A stretch of DNA of 64,000 bases, from positions 1,488,001 to 1,552,000 of the forward strand of contig NZ_CP033878.1 of assembly GCF_009690625.1 (NCBI RefSeq), in the 5' to 3' direction. Below, piece by piece: positions 26,123 to 35,411 of the stretch. Within the stretch, counting starts at the first letter, position 1; every line of letters starts with the position of its first letter. Origin of the DNA: Halorhabdus sp. CBA1104 (GTDB lineage Archaea; Halobacteriota; Halobacteria; Halobacteriales; Haloarculaceae). A program made the translations under genes and the position numbers. The notes below the pieces were generated by a model. That model was not told where the DNA came from. It ran no database searches and was given only the letters and a program-made list of their open reading frames with translations.

Positions 26123-26884
26123 TTAGGCCACGCTGCGTGATTCGATGACGATGCCTGTCCCCGAACGGACTGAGTACCCGATCGTGTCCCCGACCTGCTC
26201 GCCCATGCCGGCAAAGCGTTTCACCGAGATCTGTCGGCGAACGTCGTTGCCGACCTCGACCATCTCCAGTTCGATGAACACGTCGGCGATTGCCCGGAAC
26301 GGGCCGATCGCATCTTCATCCAGCGTCGAGGGATCGACCGTGAGCATGATGACTTTCCCCTCGGCGATGACGTCCCGGAAAAAGGAGATGATCTCCAGGG
26401 CAGCCTGGCGTTCCTCGTTTTGGCGGACGAGGGCCTCGAACTTGGGGTCGTTCCGGAGGATGGCGTCGAACGTATCGATGATAATGACGTCCGTCTCCCA
26501 CATCACCTCGGCGTCCATCAGGCGTTTGAGCAGGTCCATCCGATCGGTCTCCTCGTCGCCGCCCTGGAACGTGTTCGAATCGCCAATGTCTGCGTGCAGG
26601 AACAGCAGATTCTCGTCGAGGATATGCTCGACCATGCCGTAGTCGAGGCTGTGCATCTGATCGAGAAAGCTCCCGACCGTCAATTCAGTCGAGAGCATCG
26701 TGACGGACTGGCCAGTCTCACAGAGCCCGTAACTGAACCGCTGGCTCATCGCTGACTTCCCGGCCCCGTAGTCGCCCTCTACGAGGACGATACTACCAGG
26801 AGGGATGCCGCCGCCCAGTTCCTTGTTGAGTCGATCCCGCTCGTCTAGGCCAAGCGAGTAGAGGTCAGTTGTTGCGATACTCAT
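26123..26884 (-). CDS. arlH: Archaellum KaiC-like ATPase ArlH (FlaH)
   Basis: A 253-residue RecA/KaiC-fold protein that binds ATP, forms a ring and regulates the ArlI motor together with ArlCE. Walker A is EGDYGAGKS (36-44) and Walker B is [11 protein letters not shown], both intact. The C-terminus ends in a VIESRSVA strand. The ATG at 26884 overlaps the arlG stop by four bases (ATGA). The KaiC-like protein at 36082-36807 is a separate paralogue, distinguished by its different Walker A and lack of this neighbourhood. Confidence 0.95.
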
Positions 26885-27330
26885 GTGCGAAATTCGAACA
26901 CCTCCTCGTCACCGTTGATCGTAATCTGGACACGGTGATCGCCACTCGAAAGGTCCGGGGCCGAAATATCCATCCGGACGACGTTTCCGATGGCCCAAGT
27001 CTCCCCGTCGACGACCGTCACCGAGAAGTCAGTCTGGAAGCGGCCATCGAGCAACACGTCCATCACCACGGGATCCGGGGGCAGGCTCTGAGAACCAGTG
27101 TTCTTGACGTACAGGGTGATGTTGCCGTTCCCGGAGCGGTCGTAGACGGTCGCACCGCTATCGCTGATGAATTCGATGTCGGTGCGAACGTCGTCACTGA
27201 CGTCTAAGCCGAGTTCGTCGACGGCTTGACTGAGTTCACCGACCGTGTTCGTGAGCACGCCAGCGACGCTGGCTGCGACGAGAATGCTCGCGATGAAGAT
27301 GATCAGGTGAGACGCAGAGACACTAGCCAC
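26881..27330 (-). CDS. arlG: Archaellum stator protein ArlG (FlaG)
   Basis: A 149-residue protein with one N-terminal membrane helix ([18 protein letters not shown]) and an extracellular beta-sandwich, containing [14 protein letters not shown] and [11 protein letters not shown] strands. ArlG with ArlF anchors the stationary part of the motor to the S-layer. The open frame continues upstream, but the protein family begins at this helix, so I take the GTG at 27330, which overlaps the arlF stop by eight bases. The start codon is therefore unusual for the operon but well supported by homology. Confidence 0.88.
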
Positions 27331-27763
27331 GCACGACCACCTCCGTACTGGCAACCCCTGGACCGGAGACGATCTTGATCCGGTCGGGCTGGCTAGTGGC
27401 CGAAACGTTGTATCGCAACTGCTCGCCCGGCAGCCACAGGCCCGTCCCAGTGTCACCGTCGACAGACCGCTCGGCGAAACTCGTCTGGTAGTCGTTGTCG
27501 ACGATGAGGTCCGTCCCGTCGACGGTCAGTTCGGACGCACCCGTGTTGTTGACCGTGACGATGAGACTGTTGTTGGCGTCGTAATACGTCGCGTTGTGGA
27601 CCGCGATGGCCGTGTTTTGCTGGGTGAGCAAGTCATCCTCGGCTGCGTTACGAGCGTCTGTTACCCGCTCGACGGTGTTGAACGCGGCAGTGTGGAACAT
27701 CCCGAAGGCGATGAGCGTCGCAGCGAAGATGATCGCCACCGAGGCACTAACGCTGAAGCCCAT
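27323..27763 (-). CDS. arlF: Archaellum stator protein ArlF (FlaF)
   Basis: A 146-residue protein from ATG 27763 (MGFSVSASVAIIFAATLIAF) with a single N-terminal membrane helix and an extracellular beta-sandwich (IVTVNNTGASELTVDGTDL, then GPGVASTEVVV). ArlF binds the S-layer and holds the stator with ArlG. Several N-X-S/T sequons (NNT, NAT, NVS) may be glycosylated outside the cell. It overlaps the end of arlCE by 17 bases and arlG by eight, so the string is tightly coupled. Confidence 0.9.
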   Translation of the reverse strand: MGFSVSASVAIIFAATLIAFGMFHTAAFNTVERVTDARNAAEDDLLTQQNTAIAVHNATYYDANNSLIVTVNNTGASELTVDGTDLIVDNDYQTSFAERSVDGDTGTGLWLPGEQLRYNVSATSQPDRIKIVSGPGVASTEVVVRG

Positions 27764-29453
27764 CTGCTCCACCTCCAGCCATAGTTGGCATCTGTTCGAG
27801 AGCGACTGACTCGGCACCGCCGCCGTTCAACTGACTCACGTACCGGAGGCTCTTGGTGTGGTGATCGATAGTCAACGTCGCCGGTTCGCTGTCCGCGTCG
27901 AACCCCTGCAGATACGCCTGAAGCTGGTCGGCGACGTCCTCGTCGATCCAGTCGATGCGCTCGTAGTAGTGGATCGCCTCGGCAGTGGCTCGGATCCCGA
28001 CTTCCTCGACGAGGAATTCGAGCCACTCGACGACGATCAAGTCGGCGAGAAAGCCATCGGGGAGTTCCGTGAGGTACGGCTTCCCGTCCTCGCCGCTGGC
28101 CGATTCCTCGGCCGTGTCGGCCTGATCGCTCGCCTGAGTGTTCGACTGAGAGTCCGCATCCGCCGTCGGTTCCTCGACAGCCGCCTCGTCTACAGTCGCC
28201 GAGTCCACACTTTCGGCACTGTCCGCAACACCGTCGGCAGCGGGCTTCTCAGCGTCGTCAGTCTCTGCGGCTGCGTCGGGGTCGGCCTCTGTGTCGACTG
28301 CGTCCTGTTGTTCGTCCTCGTCGATGACCGTATCGAAGAGGTCGTCGTCCGCAAGCGCGTCGTCGGCTGACTCGTCTTCGAGTTCGTCGAAGGCATCAGC
28401 TGATTCGTCCTCGATCTCGTCGAAGGCGTCAGCCGATTCGTCTGCGAGTTCGTCGTCAGCTTCGGTCGCCTCGTTGTCCGAGCTCGTCTCGTCTGCCTGC
28501 TCGGCCTCGTCGCCCTCGGCCCACTCGGCGTCGCCCGACTCGTACTCGTCTTTCAGTTCCGCAAAGGACTTGCCGCCTTCTTCGCCGCCATCGCTTTCGT
28601 CGCCGTCCGCATCCATCTCGAAGTCATCGTCCATCTCGAAATCGTCGCCGTCGTCGAAATCCTCCTCGAACTCGTCGTCGAAGGCAACGTCCTCACCACC
28701 CTCCTCAAGCTCCTCGCCCCCGAGAACGTCACCGACGTCGGTGTCGGCCTCGAGTTCGTCGTCGTCCTCGACGAGATCCTCGTCGAAGAACCCCTCTGCA
28801 TCGGCGTTGGCGATATCTTCTTCGAGATCGTCGTCGGCCTGGTCGTCGTCGCCATCGTCGAACAAGCCAAACGATTCGTCGCCCGGGCCACCGAGTCCAC
28901 CGGCATCGATATCGTCCGCGAAGGGATTGACACCGCGGGTCACCATCTCGTAAATGTCGAGCAGCTTCCGGACGTTCTCCTCGACGTCATCGACCGTCTC
29001 GGAAATCTGTTCGTTCTCGTTGCGGACGGTGTTGACCGTCGAAGACAGACTTCCGACTTCCGTTTCGAGTTCGTCCAGTCGATGTTCCAGCTCGTCCGTG
29101 TCTGACCCCCCGTCCATGTCGCCGAACTCGTCGTCTTCGAATTCCCCAAACTCGTCACCACCATCGTCGAGTCCACCCAGCTCACCGAAATCGTCGCCAC
29201 CGCCTTCCTCCGGCATCAGTCCCTCGCCACCGCCTGCATCGTCCGGTTGTGCCTCCTCGTCGTCGGAAAGAATCGAGTCGAAAACTGACCTGATACTCAT
29301 ACCGACAAAGCCCACTGAGAGCAGTGCGACGAGCAACGGCTCCGGCGACACTGCTCCGGCCGGCCCCAGGAACCACCCGCCGGCATCCAACACGGGCCGA
29401 CCGGCCGCCGTCGTTACGGCCGATTCGAGCCACAGGGACGAGAGACCACTCAT
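27747..29453 (-). CDS. arlCE: Archaellum switch protein ArlCE (fused FlaC and FlaD/E domains) with long acidic linker
   Basis: 568 residues. A coiled coil ending LLDIYEMVTRGVNPFADD (about 155-180) is the FlaC domain. Then comes some 250 residues of nearly pure Asp/Glu/Ala/Ser with degenerate repeats such as ESADAFDE. The C-terminal domain, about 100 residues beginning YLTELPDGFLADLIVVEWLEFL, is the FlaD/E domain. ArlCE links CheF-bound CheY-P to the motor. The start is uncertain: ATG 29453 gives an N-terminal hydrophobic segment (PEPLLVALLSVGFVG), while ATG 29300 (MSIRSVFDSIL) would give a wholly soluble protein. A TATA-like element at 29488-29500 favours the longer form. A GTG at 29456 is also possible. 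Confidence 0.88.
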   Translation of the reverse strand: MSGLSSLWLESAVTTAAGRPVLDAGGWFLGPAGAVSPEPLLVALLSVGFVGMSIRSVFDSILSDDEEAQPDDAGGGEGLMPEEGGGDDFGELGGLDDGGDEFGEFEDDEFGDMDGGSDTDELEHRLDELETEVGSLSSTVNTVRNENEQISETVDDVEENVRKLLDIYEMVTRGVNPFADDIDAGGLGGPGDESFGLFDDGDDDQADDDLEEDIANADAEGFFDEDLVEDDDELEADTDVGDVLGGEELEEGGEDVAFDDEFEEDFDDGDDFEMDDDFEMDADGDESDGGEEGGKSFAELKDEYESGDAEWAEGDEAEQADETSSDNEATEADDELADESADAFDEIEDESADAFDELEDESADDALADDDLFDTVIDEDEQQDAVDTEADPDAAAETDDAEKPAADGVADSAESVDSATVDEAAVEEPTADADSQSNTQASDQADTAEESASGEDGKPYLTELPDGFLADLIVVEWLEFLVEEVGIRATAEAIHYYERIDWIDEDVADQLQAYLQGFDADSEPATLTIDHHTKSLRYVSQLNGGGAESVALEQMPTMAGGGADGLQR

Positions 29454-31915: not shown

Positions 31916-32569
31916 TCACAACTCGAAGCCATCCTCATCGACGCATTCCAGGAGGTCTCCGATCGAATCATCCGGCCCAAGGTCGTGTGATTTTACGAGC
32001 GAAGAGAGGCGCTCTGTTGGGTAACTGATCGGAACGTTCGATTCGGTGAGTAAGATCCCGAGAATTTCTTCGACTGGTGTCTCGCTATCGATGTGCTGGG
32101 CGTACCAGAGAATCAGGCTTTCGAAGATCGTCACCACGTCGTTAGACATCATCCGCCGTTGGGAGACACGCCCGTCGAACGTCGCCGTGACGTGAAAGCC
32201 GTACCGAGAATTAGCCGATTTGAAGGACTCGCGCAGCCAGGCTTCGATGTCCGCTTCCGTGAGTTCCTGAGAGTCAGTCTGCTCCGTAGTCGCTGACGGT
32301 GGGTCTGTCTCGTCGGATTGTCGCTGTGTCGAGGGCGCAGAGTCTGATTCGTCCCGTTCGTCAGGCGCATCCGCAACCGGATCAGCAGAAGTCGACGGTG
32401 CGGAGTCGGTAGTGCCGATTCCGTTAACGTCACCGATCGGATCGTTCGGAGAGACGACGTAGCGACCGTCTTCGATCTCTGCGACGTGCTCATCGTCAGA
32501 TATGTCGAGCTCTTCCGGTGCGAGCACACGACCATCATCCTCGTCGTCAGGGTCGTCCCCCGTCTCCAT
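31916..32569 (-). CDS. Acidic protein of the chemotaxis cluster, unknown function
   Basis: 217 residues. The first half is disordered and rich in Asp, Ser, Thr and Glu. The C-terminal ~110 residues form a folded domain beginning LTEADIEAWLRESFK, with a strand pair YGFHVTATFDGRVSQRR and helices IFESLILWYAQHI and RLSSLVKSHDLG. No signal peptide or catalytic motif. It sits between cheY and the archaellin genes in the same direction, so a role in signalling or archaellum control is plausible by context. I think related proteins are filed as a haloarchaeal DUF (possibly DUF7500), but I am unsure. Confidence 0.65.
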   Translation of the reverse strand: METGDDPDDEDDGRVLAPEELDISDDEHVAEIEDGRYVVSPNDPIGDVNGIGTTDSAPSTSADPVADAPDERDESDSAPSTQRQSDETDPPSATTEQTDSQELTEADIEAWLRESFKSANSRYGFHVTATFDGRVSQRRMMSNDVVTIFESLILWYAQHIDSETPVEEILGILLTESNVPISYPTERLSSLVKSHDLGPDDSIGDLLECVDEDGFEL

Positions 32570-32698
32570 GCATGAGATTCAGTGACGGGCGACAATAATT
32601 CCGTCGGTGGGAGGAACTTCGATAGTCAAACAGCGACACTTCGAGAGAGGGAAGGACCAAGTCGTTGTGGCAAAATACAAGAAGAAACGGAAGTCAGC

Positions 32699-33355
32699 TT
32701 AGAGAAGGACAGTTTTCTTCCCGGAGAGAGACTGTGGCACGACCAGCGTTGAAGTCGTCGTCCCGCCCGACCGGGTGTTGATCGTCACTTCGACCGTGTC
32801 ACCTGCTTTGAGAGGCGATATTTTGTTGCTGTCGGCGCTGTTTTGGAGAGTAATGGGTGACGTGCTATCGTCAGTACTCACGAAGTGCAAGACAGCACGG
32901 TCAGTCTGAGAGTTTAGCGTGTCGTCGTTCGAGATCGATGAATCGTCCGCTCCTTCGTCGTCTCGGAGTGCCGACCAGTTGAACACAGCATCACCCTGAG
33001 GATTGTCAAGCCGATCTGAGACGAGGTTGAAACTGTCAGTATCAGTCACCCACTGGATTGTCGTCTCGTTCAGATTGACGTTGTTCGATCCTGGGGCCAG
33101 CCGCACCGTCATATTGACTCGGTCCACGGATTCGCTGGTCGTGTTCCCGACAGCGTTTTGGACGAGCAGCCGATTCGTGACCTGCTCGGCTGCTTGTTCA
33201 CCACTCTCTTCGGCACTACTCTGCAGGAACCCAGCCGTGTTGATCAACACGCCCGCCGCGATCGCCGCGACCAGCACCATCGCGATGAACACGATCAGTG
33301 TGCCGATCCCGACCTGGGCCCGTTCGTTCCGATTGGTGTCGTTGCGTTCGAACAT
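32699..33355 (-). CDS. Archaellin (archaellum filament subunit), copy 1
   Basis: A 218-residue filament protein. It has a class III signal peptide of 13 residues ending NERA, cleaved before [17 protein letters not shown] by the prepilin peptidase, then the conserved hydrophobic assembly helix (about 14-45) and a beta-rich globular head with N-X-S/T sequons (NTT, NMT, NET, NWS). Alanine instead of the usual glycine precedes the cleavage site, as in the other two copies. It differs from them mainly in residues 158-182. The TATA-like CTTAAGTGAA at 33409-33421 and GGAC before the ATG mark its own promoter. Confidence 0.93.
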
Positions 33356-33408
33356 TGTCTGTCCACTTGGGCTCTACTTCTCAGAGGCTACCGAATTGTC
33401 CTCGTGTA

Positions 33409-33421
33409 TTCACTTAAGAAC
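33409..33421 (-). promoter_or_regulatory. Promoter element of archaellin copy 1
   Basis: GTTCTTAAGTGAA on the minus strand is almost identical to the elements before copies 2 and 3. It lies 54-66 bases before the ATG, so the mRNA would carry a short leader (about 30-35 bases) in which AGTAGAGCCCA is also conserved. Confidence 0.5.
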
Positions 33422-33462
33422 AATCCCCTAATTATCGGAGTTGAAAATATCTGTATAGGCCG

Positions 33463-33489
33463 AAAAAACAGGCACGCAGAACCGAAAAA
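33463..33489 (-). terminator. T-rich terminator downstream of archaellin copy 2
   Basis: The minus strand downstream of copy 2 has TTTTT (33485-33489) and then TTTTTT (33463-33468). Such runs end transcription in archaea without a stem-loop. This fits each archaellin gene having its own promoter and terminator. Confidence 0.4.
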
Positions 33490-33504
33490 GACTGCGGAGT
33501 TGGC

Positions 33505-34149
33505 CTAGAGGGAGACAGTTTCCTTGCCGGAGAGGGACTGTGGCACGACCAACGTCGAGGTCGTCGTCCCGCCCGACCGGGTGTTGATCGTCACTTCAAC
33601 TGTGTCACCCGGGTCAAGCGCCGAAACGTTATTCCCAGTAGTGATAACAGAGCCGCTAGTATCCTCATCACTGGGGAAATGCAAGACAGCACGGTCAGTC
33701 TGAGAGTTTAGCGTGTCGTCGTTCGAGATCGATGAATCGTCTGCTCCTTCGTCGTCTCGCAGTGCCGACCAGTTGAACACAGCATCACCCTGGGGATTGT
33801 CGAGTCGATCTGAGACGAGGTTGAAACTATCAGTATCAGTCACCCACTGGATTGTCGTCTCGTTCAGATTGACGTTGTTCGACCCTGGGGCCAATCGCAC
33901 CGTCATGTTAACTCGATCAACTAAATCGCCGGTCGTGTTCCCGACAGCATTTTCGACGACCAGTCGATTCGTCACTTGCTCTGCTGCTTGTTCACCACTC
34001 TCTTCGGCACTACTCTGCAGGAACCCAGCCGTGTTGATCAACACGCCCGCCGCGATCGCCGCGACCAGCACCATCGCGATGAACACGATCAGTGTGCCGA
34101 TCCCGACCTGGGCTCGCTCGTTCGGTTTGTCGCTTTTGCGTTCGAACAT
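33505..34149 (-). CDS. Archaellin (archaellum filament subunit), copy 2
   Basis: 214 residues, almost identical to copies 1 and 3 over the signal peptide, assembly helix and the globular part up to TDRAVL. It then differs in a patch of about 22 residues ([15 protein letters not shown] and following) before rejoining at AGDTVEV or PGDTVEV and the common end [10 protein letters not shown]. Several N-glycosylation sequons are shared. In haloarchaea such paralogues make major and minor filament parts; which is which is not visible here. A promoter resembling those of copies 1 and 3 lies upstream and T-runs lie downstream. Confidence 0.93.
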
Positions 34150-34203
34150 TGTATCTCCGCCTGGGCTCTACTTCCCAGACTCTATCCGAACAGTTCTCAC
34201 GCG

Positions 34204-34216
34204 TTCACTTAAGAAC
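34204..34216 (-). promoter_or_regulatory. Promoter element of archaellin copy 2
   Basis: GTTCTTAAGTGAA on the minus strand, identical to the element of copy 1. The intervening leader (34150-34203), with GGCGGAGATACA before the ATG, is almost the same as that of copy 3, so the promoter was duplicated with the gene. GGAG eight bases from the ATG is a Shine-Dalgarno site. Confidence 0.5.
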
Positions 34217-34257
34217 AGGCCCCCGATTCTCATGGATGAAAATGTCTGTTGAGGTCG

Positions 34258-34262
34258 AAAAA
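34258..34262 (-). terminator. T-run downstream of archaellin copy 3
   Basis: TTTTT on the minus strand, about 40 bases after the copy 3 stop, inside a block similar to the region after copy 2. Likely a short archaeal terminator. Confidence 0.35.
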
Positions 34263-34298
34263 TCGGCACGCAGAACCGAAGAAGACTGCGGAGTTAGC

Positions 34299-34943
34299 CT
34301 AGAGGGAGACAGTTTCCTTTCCGGAGAGGGACTGTGGCACGACCAACGTCGAGGTCGTCGTCCCGCCTGACCGGGTGTTGATCGTCACTTCAACCGTGTC
34401 ACCCGCTTCGAGAGCACTTATCGTGCCAGCGCCTGAGCTGTTGACGAACGAGCTAGAGCTATTTGTCTCGAAGACCAGGACTGCCCGGTCAGTTTGAGAG
34501 TTCAGCGTGTCGTCGTTCTCAATCGACGAGTCGGTCTCTCCTTCGTCATCCCGAAGTGCCGTCCAATTAAACACGGCATCGCCCTGGGGACTGTCGAGTC
34601 GATCTGAGACGAGGTTGAAACTGTCAGTATCAGTCACCCACTGAATCGTCGTCTCGTTCAGATTGACGTTGTTCGATCCTGGGGCTAGTCGCACCGTCAT
34701 GTTAACTCGATCAACGTCCTCGCCAGTCGTATTCCCGACAGCGTTTTCGACGACTAGCCGATTCGTCACTTGCTCTGCTGCTTGTTCACCACTCTCTTCG
34801 GCACTACTCTGCAGGAACCCAGCCGTGTTGATCAACACGCCCGCCGCGATCGCCGCGACCAGCACCATCGCGATGAACACGATCAGTGTGCCGATCCCGA
34901 CCTGGGCTCGTTCGTTCCGATTGTTGTCGTTGCGTTCGAACAT
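34299..34943 (-). CDS. Archaellin (archaellum filament subunit), copy 3
   Basis: 214 residues and the upstream-most of the three. It has the same signal peptide, processing site (ERA before QVGIG) and assembly helix as the others. The head is also nearly the same except for a few substitutions ([10 protein letters not shown]) and the variable patch at residues 157-179, here serine-rich ([11 protein letters not shown]). The last 35 residues match copy 2 exactly. Sequons NTT, NMT, NET, NWT and NSS could carry glycans. It has its own promoter at about 34998-35010. Confidence 0.93.
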
Positions 34944-34997
34944 TGTATCTCCGCCTGGGCTCTACTTCCCAGACTCTATCCGAACGGTTCTCACGCA

Positions 34998-35010
34998 TTT
35001 ACTTAACAAT
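34998..35010 (-). promoter_or_regulatory. Promoter element of archaellin copy 3
   Basis: ATTGTTAAGTAAAT on the minus strand is a TATA element aligned with GTTCTTAAGTGAA of copies 1 and 2, at the same distance from the ATG. The leader between matches copy 2 at nearly all positions. Confidence 0.45.
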
Positions 35011-35132
35011 AGTCCCTCGATTATCGCACATGAAAACAACAATCACGGGCAGAAATGAGTGGTAACAAAATCGAAAACAGCGGAGAAACCACCCAACAGA
35101 AAGAGCAAGCGCGCAACGTCAAGCCGATTCGA

Positions 35133-35411
35133 TCACGCCTCGTACGTGACGAGACTGTACATCACGAACAAGTAGCCGAACGTGGTCAGTCCACTATTGA
35201 CGAGCAACAGCCCCCGCGTTCCGCTGAATCCAGTCAGGAACGCACTGATCATCGTCGACGCGGCGCCCGCGACTGCCAGGGCAAACCCCAACGACAGGTG
35301 AAGCATAGCACGACGCGACGTCTGAACGTACGCCCGCATTGCCATCCCGACCATCGTCAGGCCTGCGACGACGAAGACGAGCGTCAACACCGCATAGAGG
35401 AGTTCTATCAC
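35133..35411 (-). CDS. Small three-helix membrane protein next to a winged-helix regulator (DUF7521-like)
   Basis: 92 residues with three membrane helices: IELLYAVLTLVFVVAGLTMV, then HLSLGFALAVAGAASTMISA, and the C-terminal LTTFGYLFVMYSLV. I take the GTG at 35411 as start, because the open frame upstream (to 35528) is soluble, poorly coding and overlaps AT-rich intergenic DNA. Small proteins of this shape next to a winged-helix gene recur in haloarchaea (I believe DUF7521). It may tether or sense for the neighbouring regulator. It lies 171 bases downstream of that gene and upstream of the archaellins. Confidence 0.65.
   Translation of the reverse strand: MIELLYAVLTLVFVVAGLTMVGMAMRAYVQTSRRAMLHLSLGFALAVAGAASTMISAFLTGFSGTRGLLLVNSGLTTFGYLFVMYSLVTYEA

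Follow-up and report, generated by a model that had tools for sequence, protein, structure and literature searches.

Why does an archaeon keep several archaellin genes? The question is raised by a chromosomal region of Halorhabdus sp. CBA1104 (a single contig of 2.63 Mb) in which three tandem archaellin genes are nearly alike at both ends and entirely different in one short patch. The region lies within a stretch of 64,000 nucleotides, called the window here, and all positions below refer to it. How are the ends kept alike? Is the patch exchanged between the copies, or does each gene hold its own? A first-pass annotation had recognised three tandem archaellin copies at 32699 to 34943, and this is confirmed by open reading frames (ORFs) and by profile matches to PF01917, all with E 3e-33 or better and bits well over the cut-off:

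34299 to 34943, minus strand: archaellin A1, first in transcription order, ORF of 214 residues, PF01917 E 3e-35
33505 to 34149, minus strand: archaellin A2, ORF of 214 residues, PF01917 E 5e-35
32699 to 33355, minus strand: archaellin A3, ORF of 218 residues, PF01917 E 3e-33

Each product has the archaellin signature of a short charged leader (MFER...) followed by QVGIGTL and a long hydrophobic helix, and the flanking units of the genes repeat at intervals of about 800 bases. In the neighbourhood are DUF7500, further PF01917 proteins at 26881 to 27817 and putative chemotaxis genes, the last assigned by reading ORF translations. Halorhabdus archaellin upstream regions have in common a TATA-like TTCTTAAGT, and an alignment of these regions places one box before each gene of the trio:

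35001 to 35006, minus strand: TATA-like box TTAAGT of A1, conserved in the alignment
34207 to 34213, minus strand: TATA-like box CTTAAGT of A2
33412 to 33418, minus strand: TATA-like box CTTAAGT of A3

A promoter scan with a bacterial model, which is uninformative for archaea, gave no match. Judged from its sequence, the trio is a tandem array in an archaellum-chemotaxis region, made up of three complete archaellin genes, each with an apparent promoter of its own. The array is of an ordinary kind; its evolutionary pattern is clear and general.

In the codon alignment of A1, A2 and A3, nucleotide identity is 96–99% over codons 11–62, 85–89% over codons 63–100, 84–96% over codons 101–157, 47–53% in the patch, where 4–8 gap codons are added, and 89–97% over codons 182–214. 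One run of 43 consecutive codons shows no difference between the three genes (permutation p = 5e-5). The invariant run and the patches are located as follows:

34779 to 34907, minus strand: invariant codons 13–55 of A1, for the hydrophobic helix packing in the filament core
34401 to 34469, minus strand: variable patch of A1, residues 159–181, with two N-X-S sequons
33607 to 33675, minus strand: variable patch of A2, residues 159–181, with one N-X-S sequon
32801 to 32881, minus strand: variable patch of A3, residues 159–185, with no sequon

Four further N-X-S/T sequons, all outside the patch, are common to the three copies. The annotated patch, said to differ completely between copies, is thus real, and its position at 34407 to 34475 in A1 was close. 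The claim of near-identity over about 155 N-terminal residues and the C-terminus holds for the high identity of both ends, and has to be amended by lesser variable spots at residues 5–9, 75–76 and 136–142.

Where would the patch lie in the filament? A predicted archaellin structure, modelled from four sequences at low confidence (mean pLDDT 57.9), has a helix at residues 9–54, the expected strands and a tadpole fold with an outer beta-sandwich; the patch forms an unstructured loop between strands 151–158 and 182–188. The best structural match of the model is the Halobacterium archaellum 9eq7 (VIA Z 16.1), with an rmsd of 10.6 over 175 residues that reflects a poorly modelled angle between helix and domain; the globular domain alone matches 5ya6 with an rmsd of 2.6 over 134 residues. 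In the 9eq7 filament, according to its authors (PMC11239922), the globular domains point outward, and regions unique to each of the five archaellins face the solvent outside the contacts. Mapping onto an archaellum structure had been suggested as a check, and the loops that differ among A1–A3 coincide with residues unresolved in the 9eq7 consensus chain. By homology with these structures, the patch is probably exposed to solvent, in agreement with the first-pass expectation that it lies on the filament surface. A role of the patch in adhesion or virus recognition is speculation.

The reading that we prefer, with a probability of roughly 0.7, is that the trio is a segmentally evolving tandem array. 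Conversion between neighbours would keep the leader region, the signal peptide, the polymerising helix and the C-terminal strands alike, so that every copy would be compatible with one route of secretion and assembly. Homogenisation would spare the outer loops, foremost the loop of residues 159–185, and through them the copies would differ in the surface that they turn to the solvent. The filament would then probably be a mixture of subunits, or a condition-dependent choice among them, with one core, several faces and differing N-glycosylation sequons. We infer that filaments may be mixed and that selection may favour distinct faces. As a family-wide pattern, homogenised ends together with unhomogenised loops argue that exposed surfaces, and not assembly parts, are what keeps the copies distinct.

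Could conversion instead serve to exchange the patch? The first-pass annotation had regarded the identical flanks as the means of swapping it, and in phase or antigenic variation of this kind conversion would swap patches between copies, or import outside ones, for a change of adhesion or escape from viruses. Such variation could account for the sharp break between A2 and A3, which are 96% identical over codons 101–157 and drop to 50% in an unrelated patch, and for the A1–A3 patches, for which no close relative was found among other Halorhabdus archaellins. A review argues generally that a cell with several archaellins could be better placed against viruses binding one of them, although, according to the same review, an archaellum-binding virus is still to be discovered (PMC7911016). 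The behaviour of the patch was followed by gene position in G030, G063, G086 and G091, four genomes that belong to a single genus and carry the same two archaellin genes in the same order; the position test rests on these four congeners, and no array of the same species matching the trio was found among the genomes compared. In a fifth genome, G068, one archaellin copy fits neither position group well.

Among the four congeners, synonymous differences (pS) in the patch were 0.58 between paralogs, 0.58 between different copies across genomes and 0.39 between same-position copies. The corresponding values were 0.10, 0.16 and 0.16 in the helix and 0.12, 0.17 and 0.17 in the C-terminus. This pattern means that the duplication is older than these species, that the ends are still homogenised and that the patch stays with its gene. 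Swapping by way of the identical flanks is thus not supported by these congeners, where the patch follows gene position and the ends do the reverse. The pattern indicates that conversion there would preserve the polymerising parts and leave each copy its own face. Silent promoterless donor copies, by which cassette antigenic variation is recognised, are not present in the trio: A1–A3 are all complete, each with its own leader and TATA-like box. Dispersed archaellin-like domains, considered as conversion donors, were rejected because they have no recent DNA in common with archaellins; in the closest archaellin-like fusion, even a segment with near-identical protein sequence agrees in at most 13/22 codons. 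A scan of viral contigs gave no archaellin relative, and a plasmid search gave two distant matches only. Taken with both the break and the private patches, these results leave an exchange of patches unlikely.

Another possibility is a recent triplication without conversion, after which positive selection changed a single loop fast; the tandem arrangement and the repeated flanking units would conform to it. Within the trio, pS is 0.05–0.15 in the helix, 0.22–0.43 in the middle, about 0.6–0.76 in the patch, where saturation and poor alignment limit the reliability of the values, and 0.10–0.28 in the C-terminus; the evenness of synonymous divergence had been named as a check on conversion, and it is far from even. 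The odd-one-out copy is A2 in codons 1–10 (6/7 sites), A1 in codons 101–157 (23/29 sites) and A3 in codons 183–214 (9/11 sites), a shift along the gene that a single duplication history fails to explain. A runs test on the three-way genealogy with the patch excluded gave 28 runs versus 47 expected (p = 2e-5); restricted to third positions, it gave p = 8e-4. A GENECONV-like tract test was significant for A2/A3 at codons 137–156 (p 2e-4) and not for A1/A2 (p 0.07) or A1/A3 (p 0.17). Uneven synonymous differences and genealogies that conflict along the genes argue for gene conversion, which in the trio is well supported as a probable process, and which has been documented experimentally in Haloferax volcanii (PMC8223754). 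In the congeners, moreover, the duplication is older than speciation, yet the ends look young. A triplication with selection alone is therefore quite improbable.

Does the same pattern recur elsewhere? Tandem archaellins were collected from the same family and neighbouring groups, giving 39 non-identical tandem pairs, of which those sharing one genome are non-independent. The helix has a lower pS than the middle in 37/39 pairs and the C-terminus in 34/39, and the patch is the segment with the highest pN in 31/39. Median pS within genomes versus between genomes is 0.10 versus 0.51 in the helix, 0.14 versus 0.58 in the C-terminus, 0.43 versus 0.69 in the middle and 0.62 versus 0.69 in the patch. 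Neutral sites that are more alike between paralogs than between orthologs, the mark of concerted evolution, are found in the helix and C-terminus, in the four congeners and in the 39 pairs, and not in the patch. Over all genomes, amino-acid differences between paralogs peak at residues 73–78, 115–126, 139–144 and 157–180. In relatives, then, homogenisation within the genome affects both ends of tandem archaellins and leaves out the outer loops; the supposition that gene conversion acts here gains from this recurrence as well as from the trio itself, where different segments of the gene have different closest pairs. It is most improbable that codon constraint instead of conversion makes the helix and C-terminus alike: the helix is partly constrained, as its between-genome pS lies under that of the middle, but its within-genome pS is still five times lower, congener paralogs are closer than orthologs, and the between-genome values show that constraint alone fails to explain the identity of the ends.

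How does this array compare with known systems? The literature already describes genomes with multiple archaellins that differ in exposed regions, archaellin ecoparalogs, and one case of recombination between archaellins (PMC11239922, PMC6528647, PMC7349177). A literature search, with subscription journals mostly outside its range, found neither segmental concerted evolution of archaellins nor a relevant link between archaellins and gene conversion. Like the trio, the five-archaellin filament of Halobacterium salinarum (9eq7) combines a common helix with short differing solvent-facing regions; its paralogs are almost 80% identical and have three N-glycosylation sites in common (PMC11239922), whereas the trio has one unrelated loop with 0, 1 or 2 sequons in it. 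Haloarcula marismortui likewise has several archaellins in one genome; these ecoparalogs differ subtly in function, namely in stability and in expression with salt (PMC6528647). In Halorubrum lacusprofundi, recombination between flaB1 and flaB2 exchanged the signal peptide (PMC7349177), and the leader of A2 compared with those of A1 and A3 suggests something similar; unlike in the trio, flaB1 and flaB2 have 36% identity, and the recombination took the form of a deletion in a single strain. Bacterial flagellin and other paralogs in concerted evolution are, as here, closer to each other within a genome than to orthologs, but that survey of long-lasting concerted evolution contains seven archaeal genes, all methanogen and none an archaellin, and here only segments of genes are homogenised (PMC6053082). 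Bacterial flagellin with its hypervariable regions resembles archaellins in that the ends are conserved and the exposed middle varies, although the fold is unrelated and the variants occur mainly between strains, whereas the trio consists of paralogs of one genome (PMC7018530).

The copied region also extends beyond the coding sequence. Leaders of Halorhabdus archaellin genes contain GTCTGGG-loop-CCCAGGC adjoining the start codon, then GGAG:

34941 to 34982, minus strand: A1 leader with the hairpin GTCTGGG/CCCAGGC, host-genome pattern match, covariance model 6e-11
34147 to 34188, minus strand: A2 leader with the same hairpin, host-genome pattern match, covariance model match
33353 to 33394, minus strand: A3 leader with breaks in two pairs of the hairpin and AGTGGAC in place of GGCGGAG, weaker covariance model match of 6e-5

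Promoter, leader and terminator blocks had been described as copied. This stands for A1 and A2, which have the intact leader and the downstream block; the A3 leader has decayed, its downstream block is mostly different, and the promoter and leader blocks of the three genes are 65–78% alike. In the host genome, exact matches to the hairpin occur in the A1 and A2 leaders only. In other genera, the sequence of the stem changes yet still pairs, at a nearly constant distance from the ATG. The best hairpin ended 8–12 bases before the ATG in 36/59 leaders versus 10 expected from shuffles. Pairing holds in 94% of the cells of a 20-sequence alignment, with one pair changed on both sides and another occurring as U-G, C-G and U-A; a second alignment from other genera had 89% pairing and no covariation. 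Since only 18/59 leaders beat 95% of their own shuffles in single-sequence score, the case for the hairpin rests on constant position, cross-genus pairing and specificity and not on energy. All 11 matches that a covariance model gave in 30 genomes lie at archaellin starts, with the best 150 candidates per genome scored; as these matches lie in the training set or overlap it, the absence of other sites is the informative part. Rfam gave no match over 32500 to 35300. Our guess is that the hairpin acts in mRNA stability or translation. Since it occurs only at archaellin starts in the genomes searched, it offers a way into the question of how the individual copies may be dosed. From the loss of two pairs and of GGCGGAG we infer weaker expression of A3, which may be hardly expressed at all. 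It is conceivable, at somewhat below even odds, that in haloarchaeal arrays generally conversion renews the assembly-critical ends, selection holds several distinct faces in a single filament across speciation, and the hairpin leader sets expression, with its decay, as in A3, adjusting how much each face contributes.

Several arrays among the relatives have peculiarities. In G044 (L056:1345-2852), two tandem archaellins are identical in every compared segment, by either very recent duplication or complete conversion. The array of G010 (L053:2490-3997) contains undetermined letters in its archaellin copies and looks incompletely assembled. Four tandem archaellins of about 300 residues each occur in G059 (L075:220-4066), with the leader hairpin on the first only. 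Finally, in three Halorhabdus genomes the outer domain of archaellin, in some cases together with part of the helix, is fused C-terminally to unrelated membrane, Tat-lipoprotein-like or zinc-ribbon proteins:

L042:2884-4314 (host C1:895883-897313): archaellin-domain fusion
L038:2337-4769: archaellin-domain fusion
L039:1662-3038: archaellin-domain fusion
L040:1460-2617: archaellin-domain fusion

These fusions are devoid of the archaellin leader and hydrophobic helix, and possibly display an archaellin-like domain on the cell surface.
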